From Rhodospirillales bacterium (lineage in GTDB: Bacteria > Pseudomonadota > Alphaproteobacteria > ATCC43930 > CGMCC-115725): DNA of 44,756 bases. Below are positions 2,826-18,265 of this stretch, one piece after another. The stretch is from contig JAQGID010000161.1 of the NCBI GenBank assembly GCA_028291405.1, positions 1-44,756 on the forward strand. The letters are read 5' to 3'. The notes beneath the pieces are model-generated. The model made no database searches and was not told where the DNA came from. It saw only the letters and a program-made list of their open reading frames with translations. Each line of letters opens with the position of its first letter. The stretch's first letter is position 1. The translations under genes were made by a program, and so were the position numbers.

Positions 2826-3083
2826 TTATCAATCAATAAAGGCCGTTTTATTTTAGCTTTTTTTGTCTAGACTTGCGGCGTGATTAGTAGCCGATGCCAG
2901 CTGCAAGAGTTCCCAGTCGAGATTCCCGCGAAGCCTCGCGGCCGAGGACAAGCGATGTGTGCGAACACCGTCGCGCGATCCATGCATCTATGGTACTTCC
3001 GGGTGAGAAAATGGCGCTTCGCGAATTGCGTCGGCACGGGCGTGCGCGACGCACGGAACGTCGGCAAACGGGAGGGTCGAAGG

Positions 3084-4784
3084 ATGCAGAATCATCGTGA
3101 CGGCGGCGAGGCGATTCTCGACGGGTTCCGTAAGCTCGGCATCGATTACATCATGTCGTCGCCGGGATCGGAGTGGTCGCCGGTCTGGGAAGCTCTGGCG
3201 CGCCAGAGCCTGAGCAATACCCCGGGCCCGACTTTCATCGAAACGTGGCACGAGACCCTCGCGGCCGACATGGCGATTGGCTACACCTACGTCACCGGGC
3301 GGCCGCAGGCCGTCCTGCTGCATGCCGGCGTCGGCCTGCTGCACGGCAGCATGGGCGTCTTCGGCGCGCTGCAGGGCGAGATCCCGATGATCGTCATGTC
3401 CGGTGAATCGCTCAGCCTCGGCGAGGATCCCAACGTCGAGATCGAGCCGCAATGGTACGGCGGTGTCAGCGTCGTCGGCGGGGCGCAGCGGCTGGCACAG
3501 CCCTTCGTCAAATGGGCGAGCCAGGTCACCAGCCCCTATACGCTGCATGAGAGCGTCATCCGCGCCGGCGAGATGGCAGAGCGCATCCCGCAGGGTCCGG
3601 TCTATCTCGACGTCCCGCTCGAGCACATGGTGCACGAGTGGACGCCGTCACTCGATCGGCGCGAAATCCCGCGGCCGCCGCGCGTCCAGGCGCATCCCGA
3701 CGAGGTCGCCAAGATCGCGGCGCTGCTGCTCGAGGCGAAGAACCCGGTCATCGTCACCGAGACCTCCGGCCGCGATCCCGAAGCGGTCGCAGCGATGATT
3801 GAGCTGGCCGAGCTGCTCGCCGTGCCGGTGATCGACGGGCGAACCAGCGTCTATGCCAATTTTCCGAAGAACCATCCGCTGTTCCTCGGCGTCTCGACCT
3901 ATCAGCATCTCAAGGACGCCGATCTCGTCCTGCTGGTGAGCGGAAGATCGCCGTGGTACCCGCCGCACAAGCGCCCGACCAAGGCGACGATCGTCTCGAT
4001 CAGCGACAATCCGGTGAAGGCCCATCTGGGCTATCAGAACATCAACGCCGAGCATTACCTCGAAGGCGAGGTCGCGTCGTCGCTCTCGCTCCTCGCCGAG
4101 GCGGCGCATAACGCCAAGCTCGATGATGCCGCGATCATCGAGCGCCGTTCGCGCTGGACCCGCGAGCACGACAGTTTCACTGCAGGTCTCCGCGCCGCTG
4201 AGGAGAAGGCGCGCGGCGAGCAGGGGATCGATCCCATTGTGCTGCTGAGCGCGCTCTCGGAGATCCTGCCGGAAGATGCGGTCTTCGTCGACGAGACGAT
4301 CACTCACGGACTCGCCGTGCGCCAGCATCTCCGCTGGACGCAGCCGCAGAGCTTTTTCCGCATCCCGAACGGTGGGCTGGGCCAGGGGCTCGGCCTCGCG
4401 CTCGGCGTCAAGCTTGCCAGCAAGAAGCGGCCGGTGGTGCTGCTCGTCGGCGACGGCGGGTTCCTCTACAACCCGATCATCCAGGCGCTCGCCGCGTCAA
4501 AGCGCTACGAGCTGCCGCTCCTCATCGTCGTCGTCAACAACGGCAAGTACGAGGCGATGAAGCACGGTCACGTGCTGTACTATCCGGAGGGCGCCGCCAA
4601 GACCGAGGACAAGTTCCACGGCGTTAAGATCGACGCGCCGGATTTCGCCCAGTTCGGCGTCCACTTCGGCTTCCCCGGCCAGCGGGTCGAGCGGACGGCG
4701 GAGCTCGACGCCGCCATCCGCACGGCCATGGAATCGGTGCAGGGCGGCTCGACGGCGATCCTCAACGTCATCGTCAGCAGTTAG
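3084..4784 (+). CDS. Thiamine diphosphate-dependent enzyme, acetolactate synthase-like
   Basis: A 566-residue protein with the three-domain layout of the acetolactate synthase/benzoylformate decarboxylase family: an N-terminal pyrimidine-binding domain with the activating glutamate in WHETLAADMAIGY (about residue 57), a central domain, and a C-terminal diphosphate-binding domain with GDGG at 456-459 followed about 30 residues later by NNGKY, the Mg/ThDP motif. The frame is open upstream to 2880, but those 68 codons show no family similarity. ATG 3084 follows GGGAGGG and begins the conserved region. No regulatory subunit (ilvH) or partner enzyme is adjacent, so biosynthetic acetolactate synthase is unlikely, and the substrate cannot be named. 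The 255 bases upstream include an AT-rich stretch at 2822-2875 that could hold the promoter. Confidence 0.85.
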   Translation: MQNHRDGGEAILDGFRKLGIDYIMSSPGSEWSPVWEALARQSLSNTPGPTFIETWHETLAADMAIGYTYVTGRPQAVLLHAGVGLLHGSMGVFGALQGEIPMIVMSGESLSLGEDPNVEIEPQWYGGVSVVGGAQRLAQPFVKWASQVTSPYTLHESVIRAGEMAERIPQGPVYLDVPLEHMVHEWTPSLDRREIPRPPRVQAHPDEVAKIAALLLEAKNPVIVTETSGRDPEAVAAMIELAELLAVPVIDGRTSVYANFPKNHPLFLGVSTYQHLKDADLVLLVSGRSPWYPPHKRPTKATIVSISDNPVKAHLGYQNINAEHYLEGEVASSLSLLAEAAHNAKLDDAAIIERRSRWTREHDSFTAGLRAAEEKARGEQGIDPIVLLSALSEILPEDAVFVDETITHGLAVRQHLRWTQPQSFFRIPNGGLGQGLGLALGVKLASKKRPVVLLVGDGGFLYNPIIQALAASKRYELPLLIVVVNNGKYEAMKHGHVLYYPEGAAKTEDKFHGVKIDAPDFAQFGVHFGFPGQRVERTAELDAAIRTAMESVQGGSTAILNVIVSS

Positions 4785-4832
4785 CGAGGACGTCCCGTCT
4801 GAGCGCGGCTGGCGCGAAGCGCCTCGCGGCGC

Positions 4833-5210
4833 TTACGCGAAGCGCGCGCTGCTGGTTCGGAAGACGATCACCGCGAACAACAGTGCCGCCACGAAGACCA
4901 CCAGGGAGCCGACGATCGCCAGCACCTCGTACTGCGGGCCGAGGCCGACCGCCGCCGCGATCCCGATCGGGAACAGGATGCCTCCGATGATCGCCAGCCA
5001 CGCCTGGGTGGTCGCGAGCGCGCCCCGGCCACCCTCCGGCACGGCGCGGTAGTAGAGCCCGGCGAGGAAGGGGAGCACGAAGCCGACGAGATTGAGATGG
5101 GCGTGGGCCGGCGCCAGAATGAAATTCTGCGTCATTCCCATGCCGATGCCGAGGCACATGCCGAGCACCAGGAGCGCGACGCTGACGCGCAAAAGCAGAG
5201 ACGAGTTCAT
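4833..5210 (-). CDS. Small four-helix membrane protein with HAHLN motif
   Basis: A 125-residue, almost wholly hydrophobic protein with about four predicted membrane helices. The second helix begins with PAHAHLNLVGFVLPF and is followed by LYYRAVP. That histidine pattern resembles the haem-ligand helix of haem-copper oxidase subunit I, and small proteins of this type are often labelled cytochrome c oxidase-like. At this length it cannot be a complete oxidase subunit. ATG 5210 follows GGGGGTATGG. A longer upstream frame runs antisense into the LacI gene and is rejected. It converges with the thiamine-diphosphate enzyme gene (gap 48 bases) and lies downstream of the lacI-like gene with a 92-base AT-rich gap, so it is probably transcribed on its own. 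Function unknown. Confidence 0.7.
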   Translation of the reverse strand: MNSSLLLRVSVALLVLGMCLGIGMGMTQNFILAPAHAHLNLVGFVLPFLAGLYYRAVPEGGRGALATTQAWLAIIGGILFPIGIAAAVGLGPQYEVLAIVGSLVVFVAALLFAVIVFRTSSARFA

Positions 5211-5302
5211 CCATACCCCCAGGCAAAGCTGAAACCAAGGAAATTCTCTTATTGTATTATTGGTTTCCGAACAAGCGCGCGCGCTCGTCTTGCGCGAACC
5301 CG

Positions 5303-6376
5303 TTACGAGGCGAGAAGCGAAGCGCCGCGCCGGCGCGGCTGGACCGAGTGCCGGACCAGCAGCTCGCAGGGCAGGAGCGTCAGCGCGCCGACGCTGCCAC
5401 CCGCGATCAGCGAGAGAAGGTTGCTCGCGGCCATTCCCCCCATCTCGGCGACCGGCATGCGCACCGTCGTCAGCGGCGGATCGACGTATTGGCCCATCTC
5501 GGTATTGCCGCAACCGATGATCGAGATATCCGCCGGCACTGCAAGCCCGTGCGCGCGGCATTCGGCGACGAGCCCGAGGCTGAGAATGTCGCCGGTGCAG
5601 GCGACGGCCTTCGGCGCTTCGACGCTGCGCAGCAGGGCGCCCGCCGCGGCGCGTACGCTCGGGCCGTCGTAGTCCTCGGTCACGACCAGCCACCGGTCGG
5701 GCAGGCCGAGCCCGTGGTGGCGGATGCGCGCCGCCGCCGCGGCGAAGCGCTCGGCAATCGGCGGCGTGTTGTGGACTGGGCCCGTCATCACGGCGATCTC
5801 ACGATGCCCTTGCTCTACCAGATGGTCGATCGCGAGTTCCATCGCGCCGACATTGTCGAGCGCAATGCTGGGGCCGAGCGGCAGCAGACGGGAGACGTCC
5901 TGCGAGACGAAGGGAAGCTTGTTGCGGGCGAGGAGATTGCCGAGCTCGGGAGCATGCTCCGACCCGGTGATGATCAGCCCGTCGATGCCGCGCTCGATCA
6001 GCGCGCGGATCTGCTTCAGCTCGCGCGCCGGGTCGCGCTCGCAGCAATGGATGAGCAGGGCATAGCCGGCCTGATCGGCGATGCGTTCGATCGCCGCCAT
6101 GTTGGGGGCGAAGATCGGGTTGCCGATCGTCGGCACCACGAGCCCGATCGCCTTCGAGCGCCGCGAGATGAGCGCGCGCGCCAGCCGGTTCGGCATATAG
6201 TCGAGCGTCTCGAGCGCGCGATAGACCGCGTCGCGCTTTTCCGCGACGACCATCGACGGGTTGTTGATGACACGCGACACGGTGGCAACGGAGACGCCGG
6301 CGGCCTGCGCGACGTCGCGGACGGTCGCCTTGCCGGCGCCGTCCGCCACGTCCCGGGGTCGCTTCCGCGCCGCCAT
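5303..6376 (-). CDS. LacI-family transcriptional regulator
   Basis: A 357-residue repressor of the LacI/GalR family. Residues 17-65 form the helix-turn-helix and hinge (VRDVAQAAGVSVATVSRVIN, then YMPNRLARAL), and the rest is the periplasmic-binding-protein-like ligand domain, ending with the usual TTVRMP segment. It is the last gene of the minus-strand run SBP-ATPase-permease-oxygenase-lacI, 10 bases after the oxygenase gene, so it is probably cotranscribed with the genes it controls. The likely operator is the perfect palindrome at 10180-10195 upstream of the binding-protein gene. It has the central CG and TGAAAACGTTTTCA core typical of this family. The effector is unknown. A purine is a guess from the adenine deaminase next to the operator. 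Confidence 0.93.
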   Translation of the reverse strand: MAARKRPRDVADGAGKATVRDVAQAAGVSVATVSRVINNPSMVVAEKRDAVYRALETLDYMPNRLARALISRRSKAIGLVVPTIGNPIFAPNMAAIERIADQAGYALLIHCCERDPARELKQIRALIERGIDGLIITGSEHAPELGNLLARNKLPFVSQDVSRLLPLGPSIALDNVGAMELAIDHLVEQGHREIAVMTGPVHNTPPIAERFAAAAARIRHHGLGLPDRWLVVTEDYDGPSVRAAAGALLRSVEAPKAVACTGDILSLGLVAECRAHGLAVPADISIIGCGNTEMGQYVDPPLTTVRMPVAEMGGMAASNLLSLIAGGSVGALTLLPCELLVRHSVQPRRRGASLLAS

Positions 6377-6386
6377 GTCGGAATCC

Positions 6387-7364
6387 TCAGGCCGCCTCGC
6401 CCTTGTATTTCTGCACGTCGCGGAAGCGGCTCAGCAGATAGTCGCCGGACTTGATCGGCTGATATTTCGCCGGCGCCTCCGGCGACTGGCAGGTCGGCAG
6501 GCAGGACACCATCGCATCGTAATCGAGGTTGAAGAAGGTCGGGATCGAATACCGCTCCTTGCCGGTGCGGTTGATGACGCGGTGCAAATTCGAGCGGTAG
6601 ATGTCGTTGGTCCAGCGCTGGAACAGATCGCCGATATTGACGACCAGCGTGCCCCGGATGAAGGGCGCAGCAACCCATTCGCCGTCGCGCTTGAGCAGCT
6701 CCAGCCCGCCGATCGGATCCTGCGACAGCAGCGTGATCATGCCGTAGTCGCTGTGCGGCGCGACGCCGAAGGCCTTGTCTTCGGGGATCGGCGCTTCCGG
6801 TGGGTAATGGAACAGCCGCATCTGCACCATCGGTTTGGTGCAGTATTGCAGGAAATAATCCGGCGCCATGCCGAGGCTGACGGCGAAGACCCGCAGCAGG
6901 CGCTTGCCCAGCTCGGTGGTCTCGGCGAAATAGGCCTCGGCCGCCGGCTGCAGCCAGGGACAATCCGCCGGCCAGCGATTGGGCCCGTGCAGCGGCAGCC
7001 CCGCCTTGACGTCGGGATCGTCGAGCGGCAGGTCGACGCCGATCTCGTAGCTCTCCTTGATGTCGGGCGCGTAGCCGGGGTGCTGGTTGATGCCTTGCGG
7101 CATGAAGCCGCGGCGGAAGCGCTCGTCCATCAAATGCGGCATGCGTTGGTCGAGCCGCAGGTCGAAGTAGCGGCGCGTCGCATTGAAGATCCCGTCGCAG
7201 ACCGGCGCCGGGATGCCATGGTTGGTGACGTAGAAGAAGCCGATCGTCTCGCAGGCGTGCCGCAGCTTCTTTGCGATCGGCTCCAGCGCGCCGCCGTCGA
7301 GCAGCGGCGCGAGGTCGAGAATGGGGACCTCGTCGGCCGAGGCCGGGCGAACCCTGTGATCCAT
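6387..7364 (-). CDS. 2-oxoglutarate/Fe(II)-dependent oxygenase (isopenicillin N synthase-like)
   Basis: A 325-residue non-haem iron oxygenase. The N-terminal DIOX_N-type segment (VPILDLAPLL, then GFFYVTNHGI) is followed by the double-stranded beta-helix with the facial triad His204-x-Asp206 (APHSDYGMITLL) and His261 (NLHRVINR), and the 2-oxoglutarate-binding Arg271-x-Ser273 (ERYSIPTFF). The length is normal for the family. ATG 7364 follows AGGAAGGAGAG at good spacing. The gene lies 29 bases after the permease gene and 10 before lacI, so it belongs to the importer operon. It should hydroxylate, dealkylate or otherwise oxidise the imported compound using O2 and 2-oxoglutarate. The substrate cannot be read from sequence. 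Confidence 0.9.
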   Translation of the reverse strand: MDHRVRPASADEVPILDLAPLLDGGALEPIAKKLRHACETIGFFYVTNHGIPAPVCDGIFNATRRYFDLRLDQRMPHLMDERFRRGFMPQGINQHPGYAPDIKESYEIGVDLPLDDPDVKAGLPLHGPNRWPADCPWLQPAAEAYFAETTELGKRLLRVFAVSLGMAPDYFLQYCTKPMVQMRLFHYPPEAPIPEDKAFGVAPHSDYGMITLLSQDPIGGLELLKRDGEWVAAPFIRGTLVVNIGDLFQRWTNDIYRSNLHRVINRTGKERYSIPTFFNLDYDAMVSCLPTCQSPEAPAKYQPIKSGDYLLSRFRDVQKYKGEAA

Positions 7365-7393
7365 GATGCTCTCCTTCCTGTTGTCGACGGCGC

Positions 7394-8203
7394 TCAGGCG
7401 CCCATCACGCGATTGCCCGACATGTCGAGCCAGAATACGATCCGCCGCTGTGCCAATCCGATCAGCCAATGCAGCCCGACGCCGACGACCGACAGCAGGA
7501 TCAGGATCGCGAAGGTGCCGGCCATGTCGAAATTGAAGTTCTTCTGCAGGATCAGATAGCCGAGCCCGGCCTTGGCGCCGACGAACTCGCCGACGATCGC
7601 GCCGATCACCGAGAGCACGATCGCGACGTCGAGCCCGACGAAGATATAGGGCAGCGCCTGCGGCAGCCGGACCATGCGGAAGACCTGGGCGCGCGAGGCG
7701 GTATAGGTCACCAGCATCTCGATCTGGTCGTGCGGCGCCGAGCGCAGCCCGACGATCGTGTTGGCGAGGACCGGGAAGAAGGCGATCGTCGCGGTGATGA
7801 CCACCTTCGAGGCGACGCCGTAGCCGAACCAGATCACGACGATCGGAGCCACCGCGACCTTCGGGATCGTCTGGAAGGCGACGACATAGGGATAGAAGAT
7901 CCGCTCCAGCAGCGGCGACAAGGCGATGACGAAGCCGAGTAGCAGGCCGCTCGCGGCGCCGGCCACGAAGCCGGCGACGATTTCGTACATCGTCACCGCA
8001 AGATGCCATTGCAGATTGTCGTCGTCGAAACCGTGCCAGAACGACCAGGCGATGGCGGATGGCGTCGGCAGGACGATCTTCGGTACTTCGAAGAATCGCA
8101 CGGCGCCTTCCCAGCCGGCGATGAACAGGCAGAACACCAGGATCGATAGCAGCGGGCTGTCGATCAGCCTCTTGCCGAGAGTCTTGTCGCTAAGGCCGCT
8201 CAT
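7394..8203 (-). CDS. ABC transporter permease (SsuC/TauC type)
   Basis: A 269-residue inner-membrane permease of the nitrate/sulfonate/taurine/thiamine-precursor type, with about six membrane helices and the BPD_transp_1 coupling loop (the EMLVTYTASRAQVFRMVRLP region), which contacts the ATPase. The start ATG at 8203 overlaps the ATPase stop by four bases (ATGA), which implies translational coupling. A much longer frame upstream is the shadow of the ATPase gene. With the ATPase and binding protein it forms a complete single-permease importer. This family usually works as a homodimer, which fits there being only one permease gene. Confidence 0.92.
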   Translation of the reverse strand: MSGLSDKTLGKRLIDSPLLSILVFCLFIAGWEGAVRFFEVPKIVLPTPSAIAWSFWHGFDDDNLQWHLAVTMYEIVAGFVAGAASGLLLGFVIALSPLLERIFYPYVVAFQTIPKVAVAPIVVIWFGYGVASKVVITATIAFFPVLANTIVGLRSAPHDQIEMLVTYTASRAQVFRMVRLPQALPYIFVGLDVAIVLSVIGAIVGEFVGAKAGLGYLILQKNFNFDMAGTFAILILLSVVGVGLHWLIGLAQRRIVFWLDMSGNRVMGA

Positions 8204-9027
8204 GCGTCCAATACGCCTTCCGAGCTGAAATGGCGGCGGATCGCCGCGACGAAGCGGCCGAACTCCGGCGTGTTCTGCATCGCGAGCCGGCGCGGCCGCG
8301 GCAGGTCGATCGCGATGACGTCGACGATGCGCCCCGGCCGCGGCGTCATCACCACGACGCGGTCGGCGAGGTAGACCGCCTCGGGAATGCTGTGAGTCAC
8401 CAGCATGATGGTCTTGCGGCTCTCGCTCCAGATCCGCTGCAGCTCGCCGTTCATCGTCTCGCGCGTCATCGCGTCGAGCGCGCCGAACGGCTCGTCCATC
8501 AGCAGGAACGACGGGTCGTGCACCAGCGCGCGGCAGATGCCGACCCGCTGCTGCATGCCGCCCGACAGCTCGTTCGGGTATTTGCTCTCGAAGCCGCCGA
8601 GCCCGACCATCGCCAGCAGCTCCTTTGCCTTCGCCGTGGAACGGGCGCGGTCGTGCTTCTGTACCTCGATCGGGACCATGACGTTCTGCAGCACCGTCCG
8701 CCACGGCAGCAGGACCGGCGCCTGGAAGACGACGCCGAGCTCGCGGCTGGGGCCGTTGAGGCTCTGGCCGCGCATCGCGACGGTGCCGGACGAGCGCTCC
8801 AGCGTGCCGGCGAGGATCTTCAGCAGCGTGCTCTTGCCGCAGCCGCTGGGCCCGACGATGCTGACGAACTCGCCGTCGGCGATGTCGAGATTGATGTCCT
8901 GCAGCGCCTGGACGTCGATGCCGTCCTTCGCCTTGTAGATCTTCTCGAGACCGGCAATCCGCAGCAGCGTCGCAGCGCTGTTCGGGGGGATCATCGGGAC
9001 GATCTTCTGCGAGGCTCCCTGGCTCAT
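8200..9027 (-). CDS. ABC transporter ATP-binding protein (SsuB/TauB type)
   Basis: A 275-residue nucleotide-binding subunit. The Walker A motif GPSGCGKST is at about 59-67, the Q-loop is in VVFQAPVLLPWRTV, the signature is LSGGMQQRV, Walker B is FLLMDEPFGALD, and the switch histidine is in LVTHSIPEAV. The start ATG at 9027 overlaps the stop of the binding-protein gene (ATGA), and its own stop overlaps the permease start, so the three importer genes are tightly coupled. The LPWRTV segment after the Q-loop is typical of the sulfonate/nitrate/taurine subfamily. It energises uptake of the ligand captured by the 9024-10130 product. Confidence 0.95.
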   Translation of the reverse strand: MSQGASQKIVPMIPPNSAATLLRIAGLEKIYKAKDGIDVQALQDINLDIADGEFVSIVGPSGCGKSTLLKILAGTLERSSGTVAMRGQSLNGPSRELGVVFQAPVLLPWRTVLQNVMVPIEVQKHDRARSTAKAKELLAMVGLGGFESKYPNELSGGMQQRVGICRALVHDPSFLLMDEPFGALDAMTRETMNGELQRIWSESRKTIMLVTHSIPEAVYLADRVVVMTPRPGRIVDVIAIDLPRPRRLAMQNTPEFGRFVAAIRRHFSSEGVLDA

Positions 9028-10130
9028 GACATTGTGCAGGCCTTGGCGCTGTCCTGCACCGCCTTGATGTCGAAATCGTTGATCTTGGCGAAGAAGCCGG
9101 GCGTCTTGATGATCAGCTTCTCGGCCGGGATCGTCTTGTCGATCTGCTTGGCCTCGAGCATGAACTTCTCCAGCCGATCGAACCCGGCGGGATCGATGTT
9201 GCCCCACAGCTTGCCGCCGTTCAGTTTGAAGGCGTCGTGCAGCGATTCGAGCTGCGCCTGCTGGGTGTTGAGATCCCATTTGATCAGCGTCGCCTCGTCG
9301 GCGCCCGAGGGCTTCGTCGAAGGATAATGTGACCACTGCAGCTTGCGGGCGCACTCGGGATTGGCGAGGGCGAAAACGGTCGCCATCGCCGAGCCGCGGG
9401 CGATCGCCGCGACGAGCTCGGGATCCTTGTCTATCGTAGCCTGCATCGTCGAGAGCGTGAAATCGGGATAGCTGCGCCAATCCTCGCCGATCAGCTGGCG
9501 CAGCTTCAGCCCGGCGTTCTCCAGCGATGCGGTCGCCGAGGCCCAGTAGAGCAGCGCCTGGACCTTGCCGGTGCGCAGCGCATCGACCGGCGGGGCGCCG
9601 AGCCCGACCGGCACGAGCTCGACGTCGCGCTTCGGGTCGATCCCGTTGGCGCGCAGGTAGTTGTTCATGAAGGCGATGCCGCCGGTCGCCAGGCTGAAGA
9701 CGCCGATCGTCTTGCCCTTCAGATCCTTCACCGACTTGATCGGCCCGTCGGCATCGACCGAGATCGACCAGTCGATGACGCCGTTCGACATGATCGCCCG
9801 CACCGGCAGGTCGTTCTGGGTGTTCGCCTGGACGATGACGCTGGAGTTCACCTGCGCGAAATCGGCATTGCCGCCGACCATCTGCTGCACCGCCTGGAGC
9901 GAGGCCCCGACCGGCATGATCTCGACGTCGTAGCCCGCGTCCTTCCAATAGCCCAGCGTCACCGGCAGGGTCAGCATCGGGTAGCCGATGTTGAGGATCG
10001 TCGTGCCGACCGCGATATGGACCTTTTTCAGCGGCTTGTCGTCGGCCGACGCCGGCGTTGCGGCGAGGAGAACGGCGGCGATGGCGGCGAGGGCCGGCCC
10101 GGCGAGTCGGGAATGTGTGCTGAATTTCAT
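9024..10130 (-). CDS. ABC transporter substrate-binding protein (NMT1/SsuA-like)
   Basis: A 368-residue periplasmic protein. The start ATG 10130 follows AGGAGATCGAG and opens a clear Sec signal peptide (MKFSTHSRLAGPALAAIAAV, cut near ATPASA-DD). A frame extending 40 codons upstream is not a plausible leader. The mature part has the NMT1/THI5-like binding fold, for example the AQVNSSVIVQA and LKGKTIGVFSLATGG segments. It is the first gene of the operon leading through ATPase, permease and oxygenase to lacI, and the LacI-type palindrome sits 50 bases upstream of its ATG. This subfamily binds small ligands such as sulfonates, pyrimidines or nitrate. The ligand here is unknown. Confidence 0.92.
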   Translation of the reverse strand: MKFSTHSRLAGPALAAIAAVLLAATPASADDKPLKKVHIAVGTTILNIGYPMLTLPVTLGYWKDAGYDVEIMPVGASLQAVQQMVGGNADFAQVNSSVIVQANTQNDLPVRAIMSNGVIDWSISVDADGPIKSVKDLKGKTIGVFSLATGGIAFMNNYLRANGIDPKRDVELVPVGLGAPPVDALRTGKVQALLYWASATASLENAGLKLRQLIGEDWRSYPDFTLSTMQATIDKDPELVAAIARGSAMATVFALANPECARKLQWSHYPSTKPSGADEATLIKWDLNTQQAQLESLHDAFKLNGGKLWGNIDPAGFDRLEKFMLEAKQIDKTIPAEKLIIKTPGFFAKINDFDIKAVQDSAKACTMS

Positions 10131-10179
10131 CTCGATCTCCTCTGCCGGGCCGGTGACGCGACCCGAAAAACGCGCTATC

Positions 10180-10195
10180 CTGAAAACGTTTTCAG
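10180..10195. promoter_or_regulatory. Perfect 16-bp LacI-family operator
   Basis: CTGAAAACGTTTTCAG is an exact palindrome with a central CG, the shape of PurR/CcpA/LacI-type operators. It stands out as AT-rich in GC-rich sequence. It lies in the 226-base divergent region between the binding-protein gene (start 10130, 50 bases away) and the adenine deaminase gene (start 10357). The only LacI-family gene in the window ends the same minus-strand operon. Binding by that repressor is inference, but strongly suggested. One site could control both directions. Confidence 0.85.
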
Positions 10196-10356
10196 CAAGG
10201 CGCGTGCCAAACTCCGGCGGGCTTCCTTTTTCGCCAAAATCCGTCCTCACGTCTCGATGAACGACAGGTTACCCGGCGGCCGGCGCTCCTGTCGAGCCCA
10301 GCCGCCGCCCAATACCTGGGCATCTGCTCAATTTCTGACCTCCGGGGGCTTCCGAC

Positions 10357-11370
10357 ATGACGAACGCGGTTTCGAAATTCATCGCTGCCATGCCCAAAGC
10401 CGAGCTGCACATGCATCTCGAAGGCTCGCTGGAGCCGGCGACGCTGATGGAATTGGCGGCGCGGAACGGCGTGCGCCTGCCCTATGCCGACGCCGCCGAA
10501 CTGCAGCGCGCCTACAGCTTCGATGATCTGAAATCCTTCCTCGACCTCTATTACCTCGGCCTGACGGTGCTCCAGACGAGCGACGATTTCTACCGGATGA
10601 CCTACGCCTATCTCGAGCGCTCGGCCCGCGACAACGTCCGCCATGCCGAGGTCTTTCTGGCGCCGCAGGCGCATCTCCGCCGCGGCCTCGCGATGTCGTT
10701 GTTCATCGATCCCGTCCTGGCGGCCTTCGCCGATGCGCGGGACGCTTTCGGCATCACCGGCGGGCTGATCCCGGTGATCCAGCGGCAGTTCGACGAATCC
10801 GACGCGCTGGCGATGGTCGCCGGTCTCGCCCCGTGGCGCGACCGTATCCTCGGCCTCGGCCTCGGCGGCCCGGAGGTCGGCAACCCGCCGAGCAAGTTCC
10901 GGCAGGTCTTCGCCAAGGCGCGGAACGACTACGGCTGGCGCATCACCGCCCATGCCGGCGAGGAGGGCGGACCCGATTACGTCCGCGAGGCCGTCGAGAT
11001 CCTCGCCGTCGACCGCATCGACCACGGCGTGCGCTGCTCCGAGGATCCGGCGCTGATGGCGCTGATCGCCGAGCGCGGCCTGCCGCTGACCGTCTGCCCG
11101 CTGTCGAACGTCATGCTGCGCGTCTTTCCCGACATGCCGGCGCACAATATCCGGGCGCTCTACGACGCCGGGCTGCAGGTCACGATCAACTCGGACGACC
11201 CGCCCTATTTCGGCGGCTACGTGAACGAGAACTACGCGGCGATCCAGGCGGCGCACGGCTTCAGCGACGACGCGCTGCGGCACATGGCGCGCAACAGCTT
11301 CACCGCAGCGTTTCTCTCGGAGGATGTGCGCGGGCAGTACGTGTCGGAACTCGAGGCATTCGCGGGCTGA
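10357..11370 (+). CDS. Adenine deaminase / adenosine deaminase family protein
   Basis: A 337-residue metallo-hydrolase of the adenosine/adenine deaminase family. Zinc ligands are seen in ELHMHLEGS (His18, His20), in the HAGEEGG segment and in NSDDPPYFGGY. The HAGEEGG and NSDDPxYFGGY forms, with CPLSNVMLRV, fit the short bacterial and fungal adenine deaminases (adenine to hypoxanthine plus ammonia) better than adenosine deaminase, which usually has a TDDP motif. The ATG follows a GGGGG stretch. It is divergent from the importer operon and shares its intergenic region with the LacI-type operator, so coregulation is likely. Deamination of a related aminopurine or a modified adenine is also possible. 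Confidence 0.88.
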   Translation: MTNAVSKFIAAMPKAELHMHLEGSLEPATLMELAARNGVRLPYADAAELQRAYSFDDLKSFLDLYYLGLTVLQTSDDFYRMTYAYLERSARDNVRHAEVFLAPQAHLRRGLAMSLFIDPVLAAFADARDAFGITGGLIPVIQRQFDESDALAMVAGLAPWRDRILGLGLGGPEVGNPPSKFRQVFAKARNDYGWRITAHAGEEGGPDYVREAVEILAVDRIDHGVRCSEDPALMALIAERGLPLTVCPLSNVMLRVFPDMPAHNIRALYDAGLQVTINSDDPPYFGGYVNENYAAIQAAHGFSDDALRHMARNSFTAAFLSEDVRGQYVSELEAFAG

Positions 11371-11385
11371 TCGCCAGCCCAACCT

Positions 11386-11470
11386 CGTCATTGCGAGGAG
11401 CGCAGCGACGCGGCAATCCAGTGTCGCTGCAGCTGCCGTTGGATTGCTTCGCCTGCGGCTCGCAATGACG
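11386..11470. repeat. Palindromic intergenic repeat, CGTCATTGCGAG family
   Basis: The left arm (11386-11420) starts CGTCATTGCGAGGAGCG. The right arm (11439-11470) is its imperfect reverse complement ending CGCAATGACG, so the pair can fold into a long hairpin. Elements that begin with this sequence are common between genes of alphaproteobacteria. It lies between the convergent ends of the adenine deaminase gene and the second ATPase gene and could also stop transcription there. One arm of the same family recurs at 17847-17882. Confidence 0.8.
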
Positions 11471-11490
11471 GCTGAATAAGGAAATCCGGG

Positions 11491-12219
11491 TCAGACCAGT
11501 CCGGCGATGATCTCGCGGTGGATCTCGAACAGCGCCGGATCTTCCGGCGAGCGCGGCCGTGCCTCGCCGACCTCGATGATCTTCTCGATCCGCGCCGGCC
11601 GGCAGCCGAGCACCACGATTCGGTCGGCGAGGAAGGCGGCCTCCAGCGTGTTGTGGGTGACGAGGAGCCCGGTCGGCGCATGCTTCAGCCAGAGATCCTG
11701 GAGCAACCCGCGCAGCCGCCGCGCGGTCAGCTCGTCGAGCGCGCTGAACGGCTCGTCGAGCAGCACGACGTCGGGTTCGATCGCGAAGGCGCGGGCGAGG
11801 GCGACGCGCTGCCGCTGGCCGCCGGAGAGCGCCAGCGGATAGGCCTCGGCGTAACTGGCGAGCTCGACCGACGCCAGCATCCGTGCGCCCTGCGCGCGCC
11901 CGACCCCGGCGGCGTCGGTCGCGATCGCGACGTTCTCGGCGACCTTCAGCCAATCGAGCAGGCGCGGCTGCTGGAAGACCATGCCGATCCGCGGCTCCCG
12001 CGCGCCGTCGCCGACGCGGATCGTGCCGCGGTCCGGCGCATCGAGCCCGGCAGCAAGGTGGAGCAGCGTCGTCTTGCCGATCCCCGACGGGCCGACGACC
12101 GCGACGAGCTCGCCCGGCAGCACCTCGAGCGAGAAGTCGCGCAGGATGGTCTCCGCTTCGCCGGTATGCGGCCGGTGATGCGTCTTGTCGACGCGAGCGA
12201 AATTTATGCCGCCGCTCAT
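11491..12219 (-). CDS. ABC transporter ATP-binding protein (nitrate/sulfonate type)
   Basis: A 242-residue ATPase subunit with Walker A GPSGIGKTT, Q-loop MVFQQPRLLDWLKV, signature LSGGQRQRVALARAF, Walker B VVLLDEPFSALD and switch histidine in LLVTHNTLEAA. It is the last gene of a second minus-strand importer set (binding protein, permease, ATPase), with its start 4 bases after the permease stop. The subfamily is that of nitrate/sulfonate/taurine importers, but it differs clearly in sequence from the ATPase at 8200-9027, so the two importers are separate systems and not a recent duplication. Confidence 0.94.
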   Translation of the reverse strand: MSGGINFARVDKTHHRPHTGEAETILRDFSLEVLPGELVAVVGPSGIGKTTLLHLAAGLDAPDRGTIRVGDGAREPRIGMVFQQPRLLDWLKVAENVAIATDAAGVGRAQGARMLASVELASYAEAYPLALSGGQRQRVALARAFAIEPDVVLLDEPFSALDELTARRLRGLLQDLWLKHAPTGLLVTHNTLEAAFLADRIVVLGCRPARIEKIIEVGEARPRSPEDPALFEIHREIIAGLV

Positions 12220-12223
12220 TGCG

Positions 12224-13042
12224 TCAGACCCGCGAGACGCGGCGCCAGCGCGTCAGCCGCCGCTCGAGCGTCTGCAGCATGCCGTATTCGATGATCGCCA
12301 TGACGACGCCGAAGGCGATCGTCCAGGCGAGGACGCCGGCGACGTTCTGCGAGCTGAATTCCGAGTTGAGCTGATAGCCGACGCCGCTCGACAGTCCGAA
12401 GATCTCGACCAGCACGATGACCTTCCAGGCGAGGGAGAATCCCAGCCGCGCCCCGCTTAGCAGGAACGGCACCATCGCCGGCAGCCAGAGGCGCCGCAGC
12501 TGCGCCGAGCGCGGAATGCGGAAGACATGCGCCATCTCGATGAGGTCGGGGTCGATCGCGCGAACCCCCTGCACGACGCTGACGGTCAGCGCCGGCGCGA
12601 CGCCGAGTCCGATCGCCACCACCGGCGTCTTCCAGCTGACGCCGAACCAAATGACGCAAAGCAGCGCCCAGACGAGGCCGGGAACGGTGAGGCCGAGGAT
12701 GATGCCGGGCTCGAAGAAGGCGGCGAGCAGCCTGTTGCGGGCAATCGCGATGCCGAGCCCGACCGCGACGGCGAAGGCGAGCACCGAGCCCGAGAGGATC
12801 CGCCCGAGCGTCACGCCGATCTGCTGCAGCGCCGCGCCGGTCGGCACGATGCGGAGAAGCTCGCCGTAGACCTCGGCAACGTCGGGCACCAGCGGGCTCG
12901 CCAGCACCCGCGCCATCACCTCCCAGGCGACGATTACGACGAGGCAGAAGGCGAGGGGCGGCAGCACCGCGCGGACGGCGCGCGCCAGCGGCATTTGCCT
13001 GCGACGCGGAGTCGCTGCCCGCATCATTGGAACGTCGGTCAT
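12224..13042 (-). CDS. ABC transporter permease (SsuC/TauC type)
   Basis: A 272-residue inner-membrane permease with about six helices and the coupling loop around DPDLIEMAHVFRIPRSAQLR. The chosen ATG 13042 starts MTDVPMM. The frame is open 12 codons further upstream, but those codons do not resemble the family. It lies 4 bases before the ATPase gene and about 150 bases after the binding-protein gene. A palindromic repeat (13083-13164) sits in that gap and may reduce or process the message between them. It acts with the ATPase at 11491-12219 and probably the binding protein at 13191-14198. Confidence 0.92.
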   Translation of the reverse strand: MTDVPMMRAATPRRRQMPLARAVRAVLPPLAFCLVVIVAWEVMARVLASPLVPDVAEVYGELLRIVPTGAALQQIGVTLGRILSGSVLAFAVAVGLGIAIARNRLLAAFFEPGIILGLTVPGLVWALLCVIWFGVSWKTPVVAIGLGVAPALTVSVVQGVRAIDPDLIEMAHVFRIPRSAQLRRLWLPAMVPFLLSGARLGFSLAWKVIVLVEIFGLSSGVGYQLNSEFSSQNVAGVLAWTIAFGVVMAIIEYGMLQTLERRLTRWRRVSRV

Positions 13043-13082
13043 GGCGCGAGAGTCCCCAGGCAATGAACCCCGCGCCAAAGAT

Positions 13083-13164
13083 CGTCATCCCGGCGAAAGC
13101 CGGGATCCATCCGTCCGAGAGCTCGACGGCGGATGAATGGATCCCGGCTTTCGCCGGGATGACG
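13083..13164. repeat. Palindromic repeat with nested GAAA-loop hairpins, copy 1
   Basis: About 82 bases. The left arm (13083-13110) contains CCCGGCGAAAGCCGGG, itself a 6-bp hairpin with a GAAA tetraloop. The right arm (13133-13164) is the reverse complement, so the element can fold as one long hairpin or as two small ones. It is nearly identical to the copy at 16658-16741, including the asymmetric part GGCGGATGAATGG of the middle, so both are in the same orientation. It lies inside the importer operon between binding protein and permease. Such elements are widespread in alphaproteobacterial genomes. Confidence 0.9.
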
Positions 13165-13190
13165 GTTCGGGTTGTACATTGCCTCGATCC

Positions 13191-14198
13191 TCAGCCCGGC
13201 AGATAGACCGACTTCGCCGGCAATTTGGCGAGGATGCCGGCCTTCACCGCCCTGTCGAGCTCGTCGTCGATGACCGCGAAGACGCCTGCGTCCCATTGAT
13301 AGGCGTAGGTTTCGGCGAGGCGCTTCGGCAGCAGTTCGATGGCGTCGCGCTCGCTCGCCGGAATGCCCATCTCGTCGTGCAGCTCGGCGAGGATCTGCGG
13401 CCGCGCGTGGATCTCCTCGTTGACGGAGGCGTAGAGCTTTGCCAGCTGCTTCACCAGCGCCGGGTTCTCGGTCGCCCAGCCGCGCCGCGTCGACTGGCCG
13501 CCGAGGAACATGGTGCGCTGGTCGCCGGTCGCCTCGCGCCACATGTCGGCGACGCGGGCGATCTCGCGGGCGCCGCGTGCGATCAGCCGCGTCGAGGTCG
13601 GTTCCAGTGAGATGACGGCCTCGACGTCGCCGCGCTCGAACAGCGCGAGGTTGGCGGTCGGCGGCCCGAAGATGACCTCGACGTCATGCTTGAGATCGAT
13701 GCCGTGCAGCGCCGCGGCGAGCCGCGCCTGTCGGTATGTTTCGGTCGTCTCGGGCTGCGAGGCGATGCGCCTGCCGCGCAATTCCTTCGGCGAGCGAAAA
13801 GAGCTGTCGCCGCGCACGATCCACGAGCCGTGATTGTTGAGGCCGGGCGCGAAGATCACGATGTCGTTGCCGCGCGCCAGGCTCTCGGCGGCGCCGATCG
13901 GGCCGAAGATGCTGACGTCGAGCGCCCCGGCGAGGAGCTGCACTGCCTCCTGGCCTGGATCGCCGCCGAGGAACTGGATGTCGAGCCCGTCCTTGAGGTC
14001 CGGTGCGGCACGTTCGATCAGCGGCCGCCAGACCGAGCCGGCGCTGCCGCGGCCCGGCTGCGACAGATGCACGGCGCGGCCGGCAGCGGCGGCGATCCCT
14101 ATCGGGAGCGCCGTCGCCGCGACCAGCGACAATGCGGAGCGGACGAGCAAGGTCCGCCGCGTCAGCCGTGCGATGTCAGCTGACGATGAGCGTCGCAT
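13191..14198 (-). CDS. ABC transporter substrate-binding protein (NMT1/SsuA-like)
   Basis: A 335-residue exported binding protein. The N-terminus has TRRTLL followed by a hydrophobic stretch ending ATALPIGIAAAAG, so it is a Sec or twin-arginine type signal. The mature part has the NMT1-like fold (VSIFGPIGAAESLA and LRGRRIASQPETTETY segments). ATG 14198 overlaps the end of the upstream gene by 23 bases, which suggests coupled translation. With the permease and ATPase downstream it completes the second importer. The ligand is unknown, but the Rieske oxygenase gene in the same module suggests an aromatic or heterocyclic compound. That link is inference from position only. Confidence 0.88.
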   Translation of the reverse strand: MRRSSSADIARLTRRTLLVRSALSLVAATALPIGIAAAAGRAVHLSQPGRGSAGSVWRPLIERAAPDLKDGLDIQFLGGDPGQEAVQLLAGALDVSIFGPIGAAESLARGNDIVIFAPGLNNHGSWIVRGDSSFRSPKELRGRRIASQPETTETYRQARLAAALHGIDLKHDVEVIFGPPTANLALFERGDVEAVISLEPTSTRLIARGAREIARVADMWREATGDQRTMFLGGQSTRRGWATENPALVKQLAKLYASVNEEIHARPQILAELHDEMGIPASERDAIELLPKRLAETYAYQWDAGVFAVIDDELDRAVKAGILAKLPAKSVYLPG

Positions 14199-15042
14199 GC
14201 TCGCTCTGGCCCTCGGTCATGCCGTGCGACTTCATCCAGTCGTAGGTGCGCCCGAACAGTGTCGTGTCATAGGTGTCGACGTGCTTGTAGCGCACGAAGG
14301 CGCGCAGCAGCTCGTGCGGCTCGAGTGCGCCCTTCGCCGATTTCGCGATGTGGTGGGCGTATTTGTAGAAATCGGCATTGATCAGATCGACCGCCGCATT
14401 CTCGGCGTCGTAATAGGCTTTGCGCTGCTCCGCCGTCAGCTCGGGCGAGACGACCTCGCCGCCGCGATAGAACTGCGCCGCGACGATATGGGCGCCTTCC
14501 TTGAGCGCCAGGCTGATGAAGGGCTCCATCACCGTGACGGCGCGGAACGTCCCGTCCTTCAGCCCCTGCCAGCGCGTCAGCGGCAGGCCGCCGGGCTGGA
14601 TCTTGACGTGGCTGGCGCCGACCGCGCTCTCCAGCATCTGCACCGTCGTGTAATGCGAGCCGGTCAGCTCCTGCACCACGACCGGCACGTCGGCGAGATC
14701 GCGCGGCACCTGCAGCGCCTCATCGAAAGTCACGATCGCCTGCGCCGCCACCGCCGAGCGCAGTGCCGCGATGTTGCCGCCGCGCTTGCCGCGCTCCAGC
14801 CGGTCGATGCTGGCCCATTCGCAGACGTTATAGCTGTCGGCACCGCCGCAATCGAACATCTGCTCCTTGAGCCGCGTCATGATCGGCGCCGCGGCGCTGT
14901 CCTTCTCGCGCGCCTCGTACGGGGCCGACATCGAGACGTCGAGTCCCGCCTTGGCGAATAATCCTTTCTCGATGCCGACCAGCACCGGCAGATCGAAGAC
15001 CGGATTGTTCGGCGCGATCTTCACGACGGGTCTTTCGCTCAT
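14176..15042 (-). CDS. Binding-protein-like (NMT1/THI5 fold) polypeptide without signal peptide
   Basis: A 288-residue protein that resembles periplasmic binding proteins of the NMT1/THI5 type (KIAPNNPVFDLPVLVGIEKG, then LFAKAGLDVSM). It starts directly with the first beta strand, with no signal or membrane segment, so it should be cytoplasmic. GAGGAG precedes three clustered ATGs. 15042 (MSERP) has the best spacing (7), with 15045 also possible. It is the first gene of the second importer run and is divergent from the Rieske oxygenase gene (283 bases). It lacks the CCCFC signature of true THI5 pyrimidine synthases. It could be a cytosolic ligand sensor, a carrier or an enzyme. None of these can be shown from sequence. 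Confidence 0.82.
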   Translation of the reverse strand: MSERPVVKIAPNNPVFDLPVLVGIEKGLFAKAGLDVSMSAPYEAREKDSAAAPIMTRLKEQMFDCGGADSYNVCEWASIDRLERGKRGGNIAALRSAVAAQAIVTFDEALQVPRDLADVPVVVQELTGSHYTTVQMLESAVGASHVKIQPGGLPLTRWQGLKDGTFRAVTVMEPFISLALKEGAHIVAAQFYRGGEVVSPELTAEQRKAYYDAENAAVDLINADFYKYAHHIAKSAKGALEPHELLRAFVRYKHVDTYDTTLFGRTYDWMKSHGMTEGQSEHATLIVS

Positions 15043-15215
15043 CATGATGCTCCTCATGTCTCCAGAAACAACGGATCAATTTTGTGTTTTAGAAATTTAA
15101 CCGATTCATTCACGTAATATGGTCCAACGGCGGCGCGGTCGAAAGCGAAAAATGCCGCGGCGTCCCATCGCTTTTGCGCCGCTGGTATGACGGCGAACGA
15201 GGCCGAGCCATTCTG

Positions 15216-15261
15216 CGGCTGATCGCAGCCGTTTTCAAACCGCTGAATTGCGCGCTACAAT
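15216..15261 (+). promoter_or_regulatory. Candidate promoter and palindromic site for the Rieske oxygenase gene
   Basis: CGGCTG-ATCG-CAGCCG (15216-15231) is an exact inverted repeat. Just after it come TTTCAA (15233-15238), a 17-base spacer and TACAAT (15256-15261), a weak -35 and good -10 match. A palindrome abutting the -35 would suit an activator. No regulator gene lies beside it. The start point would be about 55 bases before the ATG at 15325. Confidence 0.4.
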
Positions 15262-15279
15262 CCACCAAAGATTGCGTCG

Positions 15280-15301
15280 GCCGGCAGATGCGGCTGCCGG
15301 C
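15280..15301 (+). other. Leader stem-loop before the Rieske oxygenase gene
   Basis: GCCGGCAG, a 6-base loop and CTGCCGGC form a perfect 8-bp stem in the predicted 5' leader, ending about 10 bases before the AGGAGGAG ribosome-binding site. It could stabilise the message or affect initiation. Its role is unproven. Confidence 0.4.
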
Positions 15302-15324
15302 GAACAAGACAGGAGGAGACGACC

Positions 15325-16614
15325 ATGGCGATCGCCGAGGATAACGAAATTCTCACCCGCGTCGGTCCCGGCACTCCGATGGGGGATCTGATGCGCGAGT
15401 ATTGGGTCCCCGCGGCGATGTCGTCGGAGCTCGCCGCCGACGGTCCGCCGCTGCGCCTCAAGCTGCTCGGCGAAAAGCTGATCGCCTTCCGCGACACCGC
15501 CGGCCGCATCGGCGTCATGGATCACCGCTGCCCGCACCGCTGCGCCTCGCTGTTCTTCGGGCGCAACGAGGAGAACGGCATCCGCTGCGTCTATCACGGC
15601 TGGAAATTCGACGTCGACGGCAAGTGCCTCGAGCAGCCGAACGTGCCGCCGCACCAGGCCTTCGCCGACAAGGTCGCGGCCAAGGCCTACAAGACGGCGG
15701 AGCGCAACGGGCTGATCTACGTCTACATGGGCAAGCGCGAGACCGCCCCGCCGCTGCCCTTCGTCGAGGCGACGCTGGTCCCCGAGGACCAGGTCGAGAT
15801 GGAGTTCGTGCAGCGCGAATGCAGCTGGCTGCAGGGCGTCGAGGGCGAGCTCGACACCTCGCATGTCGGCTTCTTGCATTTCGGCATGGTCAAGCCGGAC
15901 GCCTTCAAGAATACCGGTTTCGAGCGGCCGGTCGTCGTCAACCGCGCGCCGGAATATGTCGCCAAGGAGACGCCCTACGGCGCCGTCTACGCCGCGCATC
16001 GCCCGAACGACGAGAGCACGACCTATTGGCGCTTCGGCCATCTGCTGATGCCGTTCTGGACGATGCCGCCGATCAACGGCATGGAGGACAATGTCCTGAC
16101 GCGCGCCTATGTGCCGCTCGACGACGAGCACACGATGATCATCGAGATCTCGCGCAAAGGCGCCTACGACCGGCTGCGCGAGCGCGAGCCGATCCCCGGC
16201 GCGACGCAGCTCAACACCTATTTGCCGCAGACCTCGGACTGGCTCGGCCGCTTCCGCCTCGCCGCCAATATCACCAATGATTTCCTGATCGATCGCGAGG
16301 TGCAGCGGACGCAGAGCTACACCGGCATCCAGGGCGTCCAGCTGCAGGACCAGGCGATGCAGGAGAGCATGGGGCAGATCGTCGACCGCTCCCACGAGCA
16401 TTTGGCGCCCAGCGACATGATGGTCGGTCGCGCCCGCCGCCTGCTGCTGCGCGCCGCCCGCGCCCATGCCGAGACCGGCGCCATGCCGGGCGACGCCGCC
16501 GACCCGTCCTGCCAGCAGGGCGCCCGCGGCGGCTTCTTCGTCGCTGCGAAGGGGCTCGACTGGATGCAGGCCTATGCGAGCCAGCTGTCCGGCGAGCGGC
16601 AGGCGGCGGAGTAG
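15325..16614 (+). CDS. Rieske non-haem iron oxygenase, alpha subunit
   Basis: A 429-residue oxygenase of the phthalate 4,5-dioxygenase / aromatic ring-hydroxylating type. The Rieske [2Fe-2S] ligands are Cys69-x-His71 (CPHRC) and Cys88-x2-His91 (CVYHGW). The mononuclear iron site has bridging Asp177 and ligands His180 and His185 in ELDTSHVGFLHFG. A strong AGGAGGAG precedes the ATG. No ferredoxin reductase or beta subunit gene is in the window, so electrons must come from a partner encoded elsewhere, as often happens in this subgroup. It is divergent from the importer genes and probably acts on the imported compound. The substrate is unknown. Confidence 0.92.
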   Translation: MAIAEDNEILTRVGPGTPMGDLMREYWVPAAMSSELAADGPPLRLKLLGEKLIAFRDTAGRIGVMDHRCPHRCASLFFGRNEENGIRCVYHGWKFDVDGKCLEQPNVPPHQAFADKVAAKAYKTAERNGLIYVYMGKRETAPPLPFVEATLVPEDQVEMEFVQRECSWLQGVEGELDTSHVGFLHFGMVKPDAFKNTGFERPVVVNRAPEYVAKETPYGAVYAAHRPNDESTTYWRFGHLLMPFWTMPPINGMEDNVLTRAYVPLDDEHTMIIEISRKGAYDRLREREPIPGATQLNTYLPQTSDWLGRFRLAANITNDFLIDREVQRTQSYTGIQGVQLQDQAMQESMGQIVDRSHEHLAPSDMMVGRARRLLLRAARAHAETGAMPGDAADPSCQQGARGGFFVAAKGLDWMQAYASQLSGERQAAE

Positions 16615-16657
16615 GGGCGGGTATTCCGCAAGGCGGCTTCTTGACTCGAACCTTAAG

Positions 16658-16741
16658 CCGTCATCCCGGCGAAAGCCGGGATCCATCTGTCCACAAGCGC
16701 GAGGGCGGATGAATGGATCCCGGCTTTCGCCGGGATGACGG
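16658..16741. repeat. Palindromic repeat with nested GAAA-loop hairpins, copy 2
   Basis: The same element as 13083-13164, in the same orientation. Left arm 16658-16686 and right arm 16709-16741 are reverse complements, each holding the CCCGGCGAAAGCCGGG hairpin or its complement. The central GGCGGATGAATGG part is shared exactly with copy 1, while the rest of the centre differs. It lies between the Rieske gene and the next binding-protein gene and overlaps the first possible start of the latter. Confidence 0.9.
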
Positions 16742-17811: not shown

Positions 17812-18265
17812 CGCCGGACGCGCCGCCGCTTGGGCACCCCGGCACTCGTCATTGCGACGAGCGAAGCGAGGAAGCAATCCATGGTTGGAGGCTTGCAAAT
17901 CGCGATCGAGGGGCCACATTGTACCTGATTTGTTCTTACGTTGAGGAGGCCGAGTCGTGCTGATGGGATGTGAGGATGGCGGATCGGAGGCGATCGTTCA
18001 AAGTGTGCAGTCGCGGCTCGTTGCGGATTCTGGTCGCCGGATCAGCGGGTTACATCGCGCTGCCTGTTCCTGCCGGGAACTCGGTGTGGTCTTCGAGAAG
18101 AATATTCAACAATTTCAATATTTTGTGGAGAATGGGCCGGGCTCGCCGCCTGTAAATCGCCTGTTCTTTCAGGCCGGCCGTGACCCTGCCTCTTTCTTGA
18201 GCTAGGGTCCGGGAAGATTTCCCGCCGGCTGGCCGCCGCCTCATTCTTCGCAAGGATCACTGCCT
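17812..18265. other. Intergenic stretch before dnaE (454 bases)
   Basis: It holds one arm of a palindromic repeat (17847-17882) and no recognisable gene. An 82-codon frame from GTG 17957 follows GAGGAGG at 7 bases, but its product resembles nothing known and its composition is unlike the neighbouring genes, so it is left uncalled. An AT-rich patch near 18101-18125 interrupts otherwise GC-rich sequence. The promoter of dnaE should lie here, but no convincing -35/-10 pair was found. Confidence 0.6.
17847..17882. repeat. Single arm of the CGTCATTGCGA repeat family
   Basis: The sequence beginning CGTCATTGCGACGAGCG and ending GCAATCCATGG matches the left arm of the element at 11386-11470. The expected complementary right arm is not present, so this is a half or decayed copy. 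It follows the stop of the orphan binding-protein gene by about 35 bases. Confidence 0.65.

Follow-up and report, generated by a model that had tools for sequence, protein, structure and literature searches.

A candidate catabolic cassette for an adenine-like purine in a Rhodospirillales bacterium

What would a bacterium import, deaminate, and oxidize with a gene set made up of an NMT1-type ATP-binding cassette (ABC) importer, an Fe(II)/2-oxoglutarate (2OG) oxygenase, a LacI-family regulator, and an adenine-deaminase-type enzyme? The question is raised by a contig of a Rhodospirillales bacterium (Alphaproteobacteria; JAQGID010000161.1 of assembly GCA_028291405.1), the whole 44,756-nucleotide stretch of which was analyzed and is referred to here as the window. 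On its minus strand, an operon runs from the NMT1-type binding protein through the ATPase, the permease, and the oxygenase to LacI, and the deaminase gene diverges from it on the plus strand. An earlier sequence-only reading had noticed this grouping and the intact ligands of the oxygenase, both of which are borne out here, and had proposed the uptake and breakdown of a modified purine. Our analysis supports purine catabolism as the best theme for the locus, because of the linkage of the genes, the branches that they share across genomes, the changes in the deaminase pocket, the operator, a parallel to known riboswitch operons, the fold of the importer, and a purine cluster in the host. We see an even chance that the genes form a catabolic cassette, spread by horizontal transfer, whose substrate is an adenine-like purine other than plain adenine.

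Linkage, spread, and operator of the cassette

A scan of genome contigs for the oxygenase yielded 27 loci, 19 of them with an enzyme 59-79% identical to that of the window (L010-L028) and eight others at 34-43%; a plasmid of a Comamonadaceae leaf isolate (L042, oxygenase 61% identical) provides a twentieth ortholog locus. Linkage could be tested in 18 of the 20, the contigs of L010 and L022 ending inside the binding-protein gene, and the deaminase is present beside the oxygenase in 17 of these 18 loci, all from other genomes. A deaminase unlinked in most genomes, which the sequence-only reading had named as a refutation, was not seen in these loci. Five of the deaminase genes lie on the operon's own strand (L012, L015, L016, L027, and L042) and the other twelve on the opposite one. 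Orthologs of the ATPase (59-82% identity) and of the permease (60-78%) are each found in 18 of the 20 loci; neither was seen in L017, and those of L026 are less similar (54% and 47%) and lie next to a second oxygenase. The binding protein has an ortholog in 19 loci, two of these cut by a contig end, a LacI gene adjoins the cassette in 11 of the 20, and a LysR gene lies within the operon of L042. This linkage exceeds chance, and the genes are a co-inherited unit.

The carriers belong to the Xanthobacteraceae, Acetobacteraceae/Roseomonadaceae, Rhodospirillaceae, Paracoccaceae, and Burkholderiales, and include the cultured Roseomonas aerilata DSM 19363 (L016). Because the binding protein has no match at E 1e-40 in 36 other genomes, often incomplete, from the genus and family of the window, we infer that the cassette was probably acquired by horizontal transfer. 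Across 385 genomes of the class, A_deaminase matches at E 1e-60 number 62 and come from 53 genomes (those outside the window at 36-58% identity), and oxygenase matches at E 1e-95 occur only in the window's genome and in two others (G318, 50%; G012, 48%). Since neither of the latter is among the 53, no sampled genome of the class except that of the window holds both enzymes at these thresholds; nor is there a deaminase near the oxygenase of either, and the surroundings of four deaminase relatives (L076, L079, L080, and L081) contain no oxygenase. The cassette is rare in this sample, in which relatives of the deaminase are far commoner than those of the oxygenase.

The spacer between the divergent transcripts contains the palindrome CCTGAAAACGTTTTCAGC, which is one mismatch from GCTGAAAACGTTTTCAGC and is the sole site with at most two mismatches in the 6.48 Mb genome. 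Two further genomic sites fall within three mismatches, each having three, and 0.02 sites would be expected by chance in the window at this threshold. Counted at up to three mismatches, the operator lies upstream of the binding protein in eight of ten testable loci that bear LacI (L011-L017 and L025) and in none of the eight testable loci without it (nine lack LacI; L022 is without the region). The sole match in L023 falls within the oxygenase gene, and L024 is without a match; the spacers of both hold degenerate forms only. The LacI protein is predicted to bind the operator.

Pocket changes in the cassette deaminase

The AlphaFold model of the deaminase (mean predicted local distance difference test [pLDDT] score 94.0) is nearest in fold to adenine deaminases, and its closest solved relatives are Pa0148 (3OU8, E 6e-94) and 3RYS, entitled adenine deaminase AAur1117 in the PDB. 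These two share 44-47% identity, a like fold, the catalytic residues, and the HLEG/HIEG motif with the window's enzyme, and the cassette retains the glutamate of the HLEG motif found in adenine deaminases. Residues H18, H20, H199, E202, H223, D280, and D281 are unvarying in 25 aligned sequences; we take them to have the catalytic and zinc-binding roles of their counterparts in adenosine deaminase.

In a tree of 51 sequences with 200 bootstrap trees, from which the genome's own paralog L082b was dropped, 18 cassette deaminases share one branch (93/98; 94% of the bootstrap trees) with one unlinked member, L047 of genome G224. All 18 differ from their ordinary relatives in the pocket, where L140 of Pa0148 is replaced by Q142 in the numbering of the window, and D168-S169 by G170-G171, whereas L, D, and S stand at these positions in 30 of 30 ordinary members. 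The ordinary set consists of Pa0148, AAur1117, and 28 of the 29 sequences from the class search (all except L047); two more distant A_deaminases left out of the count read L, D, S (L082a) and I, D, S (L024_para). The G224 gene (L047/L076) codes for a cassette-type deaminase, lies beside a CaiB-type CoA-transferase, and has an intermediate pocket (N, E, G).

G170-G171 align with the A-G of the AGDE motif in bacterial adenosine deaminases, and we assume that G171 is the equivalent of Gly184, and Q142 that of Met155, in mammalian numbering. In the mammalian adenosine deaminase, Gly184 is described as touching the purine N3 and Asp19 as contacting the ribose hydroxyls (PMC12388660); Met155 belongs to the residues given as inhibitor contacts (PMC6239307). 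As far as sequence tells, the pocket changes sit on the N3/N9 edge of the base, and either the substrate differs from adenine at this edge or the changes offset one another. Given that the cassette enzymes form their own branch and are changed at otherwise invariant positions, they are a dedicated type, and probably not one for plain adenine.

The rest of the genome is relevant here. Another of its contigs (L082) carries a general purine cluster in which two further A_deaminases (40% and 38%) are joined by a PnrA-like importer and by guanine and 8-oxoguanine deaminases; a xanthine dehydrogenase fragment there is cut by the contig end and scores 547 bits, under the family cutoff for a whole protein. 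As two A_deaminases are already present, an extra plain adenine deaminase would be redundant, and the host has no need of the cassette enzyme for adenine.

Oxygenase, importer, and the parallel to xanthine-riboswitch operons

The facial triad of the oxygenase (H204, D206, and H261, an HxD...H motif) and its RxS motif for 2OG (R271-x-S273) are unvarying in 30 aligned homologs, and 21 cassette members together with L026 share one branch (100/98). These motifs are common to isopenicillin-N-synthase (IPNS)-like oxygenases and reveal no nucleobase specificity. Thymine 7-hydroxylase is of the same superfamily, and the window's enzyme matches the thymine dioxygenase 5C3P at E 9e-37, weaker by about thirty orders of magnitude than its best match, 9OVH.

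For the binding protein, a fold search with the model (pLDDT 88.9) placed thiamin- and formylaminopyrimidine (FAMP)-binding proteins (18-22% identity) at ranks 1 and 2, followed by Thi5 from rank 5 on, a putative SsuA at 7, TauA at 16, and PqqT at 18, which points to a flat heteroaromatic ligand and does not identify which. The sequence-only reading had named preference for an unrelated ligand such as a sulfonate as an outcome that would undo it; judged by fold only, thiamin- and pyrimidine-binding proteins lead, and not sulfonate binders. The transporter parts do match SsuA, SsuC, TauC, and SaoP, weakly and each under its curated cutoff. Import of a sulfonate is disfavored by the fold ranking and by the conserved deaminase.

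The suggestion that the gene combination is undescribed is not supported. Xanthine and uric acid are reported as ligands of the NMT1-motif riboswitch, which lies upstream of NMT1/THI5-like, tauA-like, and IPNS-like genes; some of its operons include deaminases or amidohydrolases, and the test case has two NMT1 genes, pcbC, and a gene there named tadA (PMC7373994). The account in that paper thus already joins NMT1 importers, IPNS-like dioxygenases, and deaminases, and it is the only one in which our literature search surfaced the combination. Surveying 398 genomes of the phylum for this riboswitch (RF03054), we found 16 positive genomes; 17 loci from these were examined for genes within 7 kb of the riboswitch. 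Oxygenases 29-39% like the window's are held by 11 of the 17 loci (13 oxygenases altogether). The order in L133 matches closely: riboswitch, NMT1 binding protein, ATPase, permease, riboswitch, oxygenase, LysR, and a cytosine-deaminase-like gene (PRK07583). A PRK12393 amidohydrolase is found in L121, L123, L131, and L132, accompanied by the importer ATPase and permease in all of these but L123. As a further parallel, a 44% oxygenase relative in Shinella lies among PnrA-type importers and a cytosine deaminase.

The riboswitch operons, as characterized by RF03054 and PMC7373994, therefore resemble the cassette in combining an NMT1/THI5-type importer, an IPNS-like 2OG oxygenase, and a base deaminase, but the two differ in several respects. 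The cassette deaminase is of the adenosine-deaminase family, whereas those of L121, L123, L131, L132, and L133 are 8-oxoguanine- or cytosine-deaminase-like amidohydrolases, and an A_deaminase occurs in none of the 17 loci within the 7 kb considered. The riboswitch operons carry RF03054, while the cassette is without it and has a LacI or LysR regulator gene in 12 of the 20 loci. The cassette oxygenases are also set apart from two riboswitch-linked oxygenase branches, and orthology between them is thus unsupported by the tree. The cassette is a separate, riboswitch-free branch of the purine-oxidation operon theme and not a new kind of system. The modified-purine proposal is supported in part: purine catabolism is the best theme, and the genes are inherited together.

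Candidate roles of the cassette

The gene set, its linkage, the operator, the dedicated clades, and the altered pocket are established from sequence. In the purine cassette that we favor, the NMT1-type importer would take up the base, the dedicated deaminase would hydrolyze the 6-amino group of a base whose N3/N9 edge is unlike that of adenine, and the 2OG oxygenase would oxidize the base, most likely by hydroxylating it and thereby shedding a substituent, or else by oxidizing the ring. The product would enter the host's ordinary purine pathway, and LacI would hold both divergent transcripts repressed via the single operator until substrate or product arrives. A more specific version, which we offer as possible though short of probable, is a pathway for adenine carrying a substituent on its N3 or N9 edge, such as 3-methyladenine or a natural adenine substituted at position 9, in which the oxygenase sheds the substituent from a modified hypoxanthine. 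Since no member retains the acidic and serine side chains that would face N3/N9-H of plain adenine, the deaminase would precede the oxygenase and work on the modified base while it is still intact.

The sequence-only reading had the reverse order, with an N-alkylated adenine being imported, dealkylated by the oxygenase to adenine, and then deaminated to hypoxanthine. The gene set would be identical, the deaminase is closest to adenine deaminases, and AlkB-group 2OG oxygenases demethylate N-methyl bases in nucleic acids. However, a final step on plain adenine needs no change at residues that are invariant in ordinary members, and every cassette deaminase is altered there; the host has its two other A_deaminases, and our literature search surfaced no free-purine dealkylase among IPNS-like enzymes. 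The pocket changes suit an enzyme that meets the non-standard base itself, and for this reason we do not favor the reverse order and think it unlikely.

The architecture shared with the xanthine-riboswitch operons raises another route, in which plain adenine (or hypoxanthine) would be imported, deaminated, and hydroxylated on the ring to xanthine or urate without molybdenum, in line with what PMC7373994 suggests for riboswitch-linked dioxygenases. We hold it to be improbable, as the cassette oxygenases fall on a branch apart from both riboswitch-linked ones, a xanthine dehydrogenase fragment, cut by the end of the contig, lies beside the host's purine cluster, and the deaminase pocket is unlike that of ordinary adenine deaminases. 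Could the substrate instead be a non-purine heteroaromatic amine, with a deaminase-type enzyme recruited to hydrolyze its amino group? The altered pocket would fit, as would a binding protein whose fold relatives bind thiamin, formylaminopyrimidine, or pyrroloquinoline quinone, and a LacI that has lost the purine contacts we ascribe to PurR; yet the deaminase retains all catalytic residues and 44-47% identity to two solved adenine deaminases, and the riboswitches of similar operons respond to xanthine or urate, which leaves this idea doubtful. An accidental or nitrogen-scavenging grouping of a sulfonate- or taurine-type importer, an unrelated oxygenase, and a bystander deaminase, for which the sub-cutoff SsuA, SsuC, TauC, and SaoP matches and the putative SsuA at fold rank 7 could be cited, is very improbable given a deaminase kept in 17 of 18 testable loci, five times on the operon's own strand, and an operator shared by the divergent loci.

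Several observations weigh against the purine cassette as we propose it. The evidence suggests a class of substrate only, purine-like, and both enzyme activities are predicted. L026 lacks the deaminase with about 10 kb present on each side of its oxygenase, and the L047 deaminase of G224 falls on the cassette branch without an oxygenase beside it. Support for that branch (93/98) is slightly under the tree tool's mark for firm support, and the pocket changes could offset each other and leave specificity unaltered. Distant oxygenase relatives have mixed neighbors: some lie near a cytosine deaminase, a nucleoside hydrolase, hut genes, or an adenosine kinase, and others near nothing informative (drawn from 11 of 15 plasmid matches; H2, H6, and H14 are without annotation). 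Direct control by a xanthine riboswitch was sought and not found: RF03054 is absent at its gathering score from the window, L010-L028, and L042, and from the whole of the window's own genome in a search with stricter filters, and an E-value riboswitch search of positions 4800-17900 returned three matches, each far under its gathering score. Lastly, the nearest solved structure to the LacI protein is PurR (E 1.5e-42), whose purine contacts we take to be R190, T192, and D275; in the alignment, which was read by eye and has a gap near T192, the window's LacI has N, P, and G there, and F and Y at the positions of F74 and F221 of PurR. PurR-like sensing of hypoxanthine or guanine is rejected, as the contact residues are not retained.

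The layout of the locus is given in Table 1. Genes overlap by 4 bases at the binding protein/ATPase and ATPase/permease junctions, and gaps of 29 and 10 bases separate permease from oxygenase and oxygenase from LacI. The LacI gene (5303-6376) lies slightly beyond the interval 6387-11370 covered by the sequence-only reading.

Table 1. Features of the candidate purine cassette in the window
Feature	Position	Strand	Remarks
NMT1/THI5-type periplasmic binding protein	9024..10130	-	operon gene 1; Pfam NMT1 E 1e-24; AlphaFold pLDDT 88.9
ABC transporter ATPase	8200..9027	-	Pfam ABC_tran E 2e-34
ABC transporter permease	7394..8203	-	Pfam BPD_transp_1 E 2e-30
Fe(II)/2-oxoglutarate oxygenase, isopenicillin N synthase-like	6387..7364	-	Pfam DIOX_N E 3e-27, 2OG-FeII_Oxy E 4e-26
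LacI-family regulator	5303..6376	-	final operon gene; Pfam LacI and Peripla_BP_3
Putative LacI-type palindromic operator CCTGAAAACGTTTTCAGC	10179..10196		in the spacer between binding-protein and deaminase genes
Adenine-deaminase-type enzyme, A_deaminase family	10357..11370	+	Pfam A_deaminase E 3e-91; NCBIfam PRK09358.1-6 over its cutoff

On either side of the cassette lie genes that we do not count as parts of it. Positions 11491-16614 hold a second NMT1/SsuA-type ABC set (ATPase, permease, and binding protein) and, farther on, a LigXa_C-like Rieske oxygenase gene (15325-16614), a family found in L029 next to an NMT1 importer and an oxygenase relative (43%); close to the LacI end is a thiamine-diphosphate enzyme of the acetolactate synthase/benzoylformate decarboxylase group (2880-4784). 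No gene in the 27 loci finds its best match in the second ABC set (11491-14198) or in the thiamine-diphosphate enzyme. Other loci have neighbors of their own. A glutathione S-transferase gene directly 3' of the deaminase in three of them (L023, 3641-4243; L024, 4221-4838; L025, 1123-1698) could handle an aldehyde freed by dealkylation, and a GMC oxidoreductase/TRAP set is a neighbor in two (L014 and L017); both occur in too few loci to be general cassette neighbors. In L024 (Komagataeibacter, 12192-15868), the genes after the cassette encode a further NMT1 protein, another A_deaminase (41%), and a permease of the xanthine/uracil type, which makes for a purine-rich setting. In L025 (Phycocomes zhengii, 5791-8949), oxygenase and binding protein are each present twice in one cassette, which may serve a pair of related substrates.

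If the pathway for an edge-substituted adenine is correct, an IPNS-like enzyme would act as a dealkylase of a free purine, and to our knowledge no earlier bacterial catabolic route for N3- or N9-substituted adenine has been reported. Modified purines arise from the turnover of RNA and DNA and from plants and fungi, and their recycling in bacteria is poorly known. In E. coli, the recycling of N6-methylated adenines is described as not established (PMC13296781). A compact, regulated, and transferable cassette with a group-wide pocket change narrows the search for such a pathway to a few proteins and a well-defined panel of assays, and it extends the set of oxygenases proposed for purine oxidation by a branch without a riboswitch.

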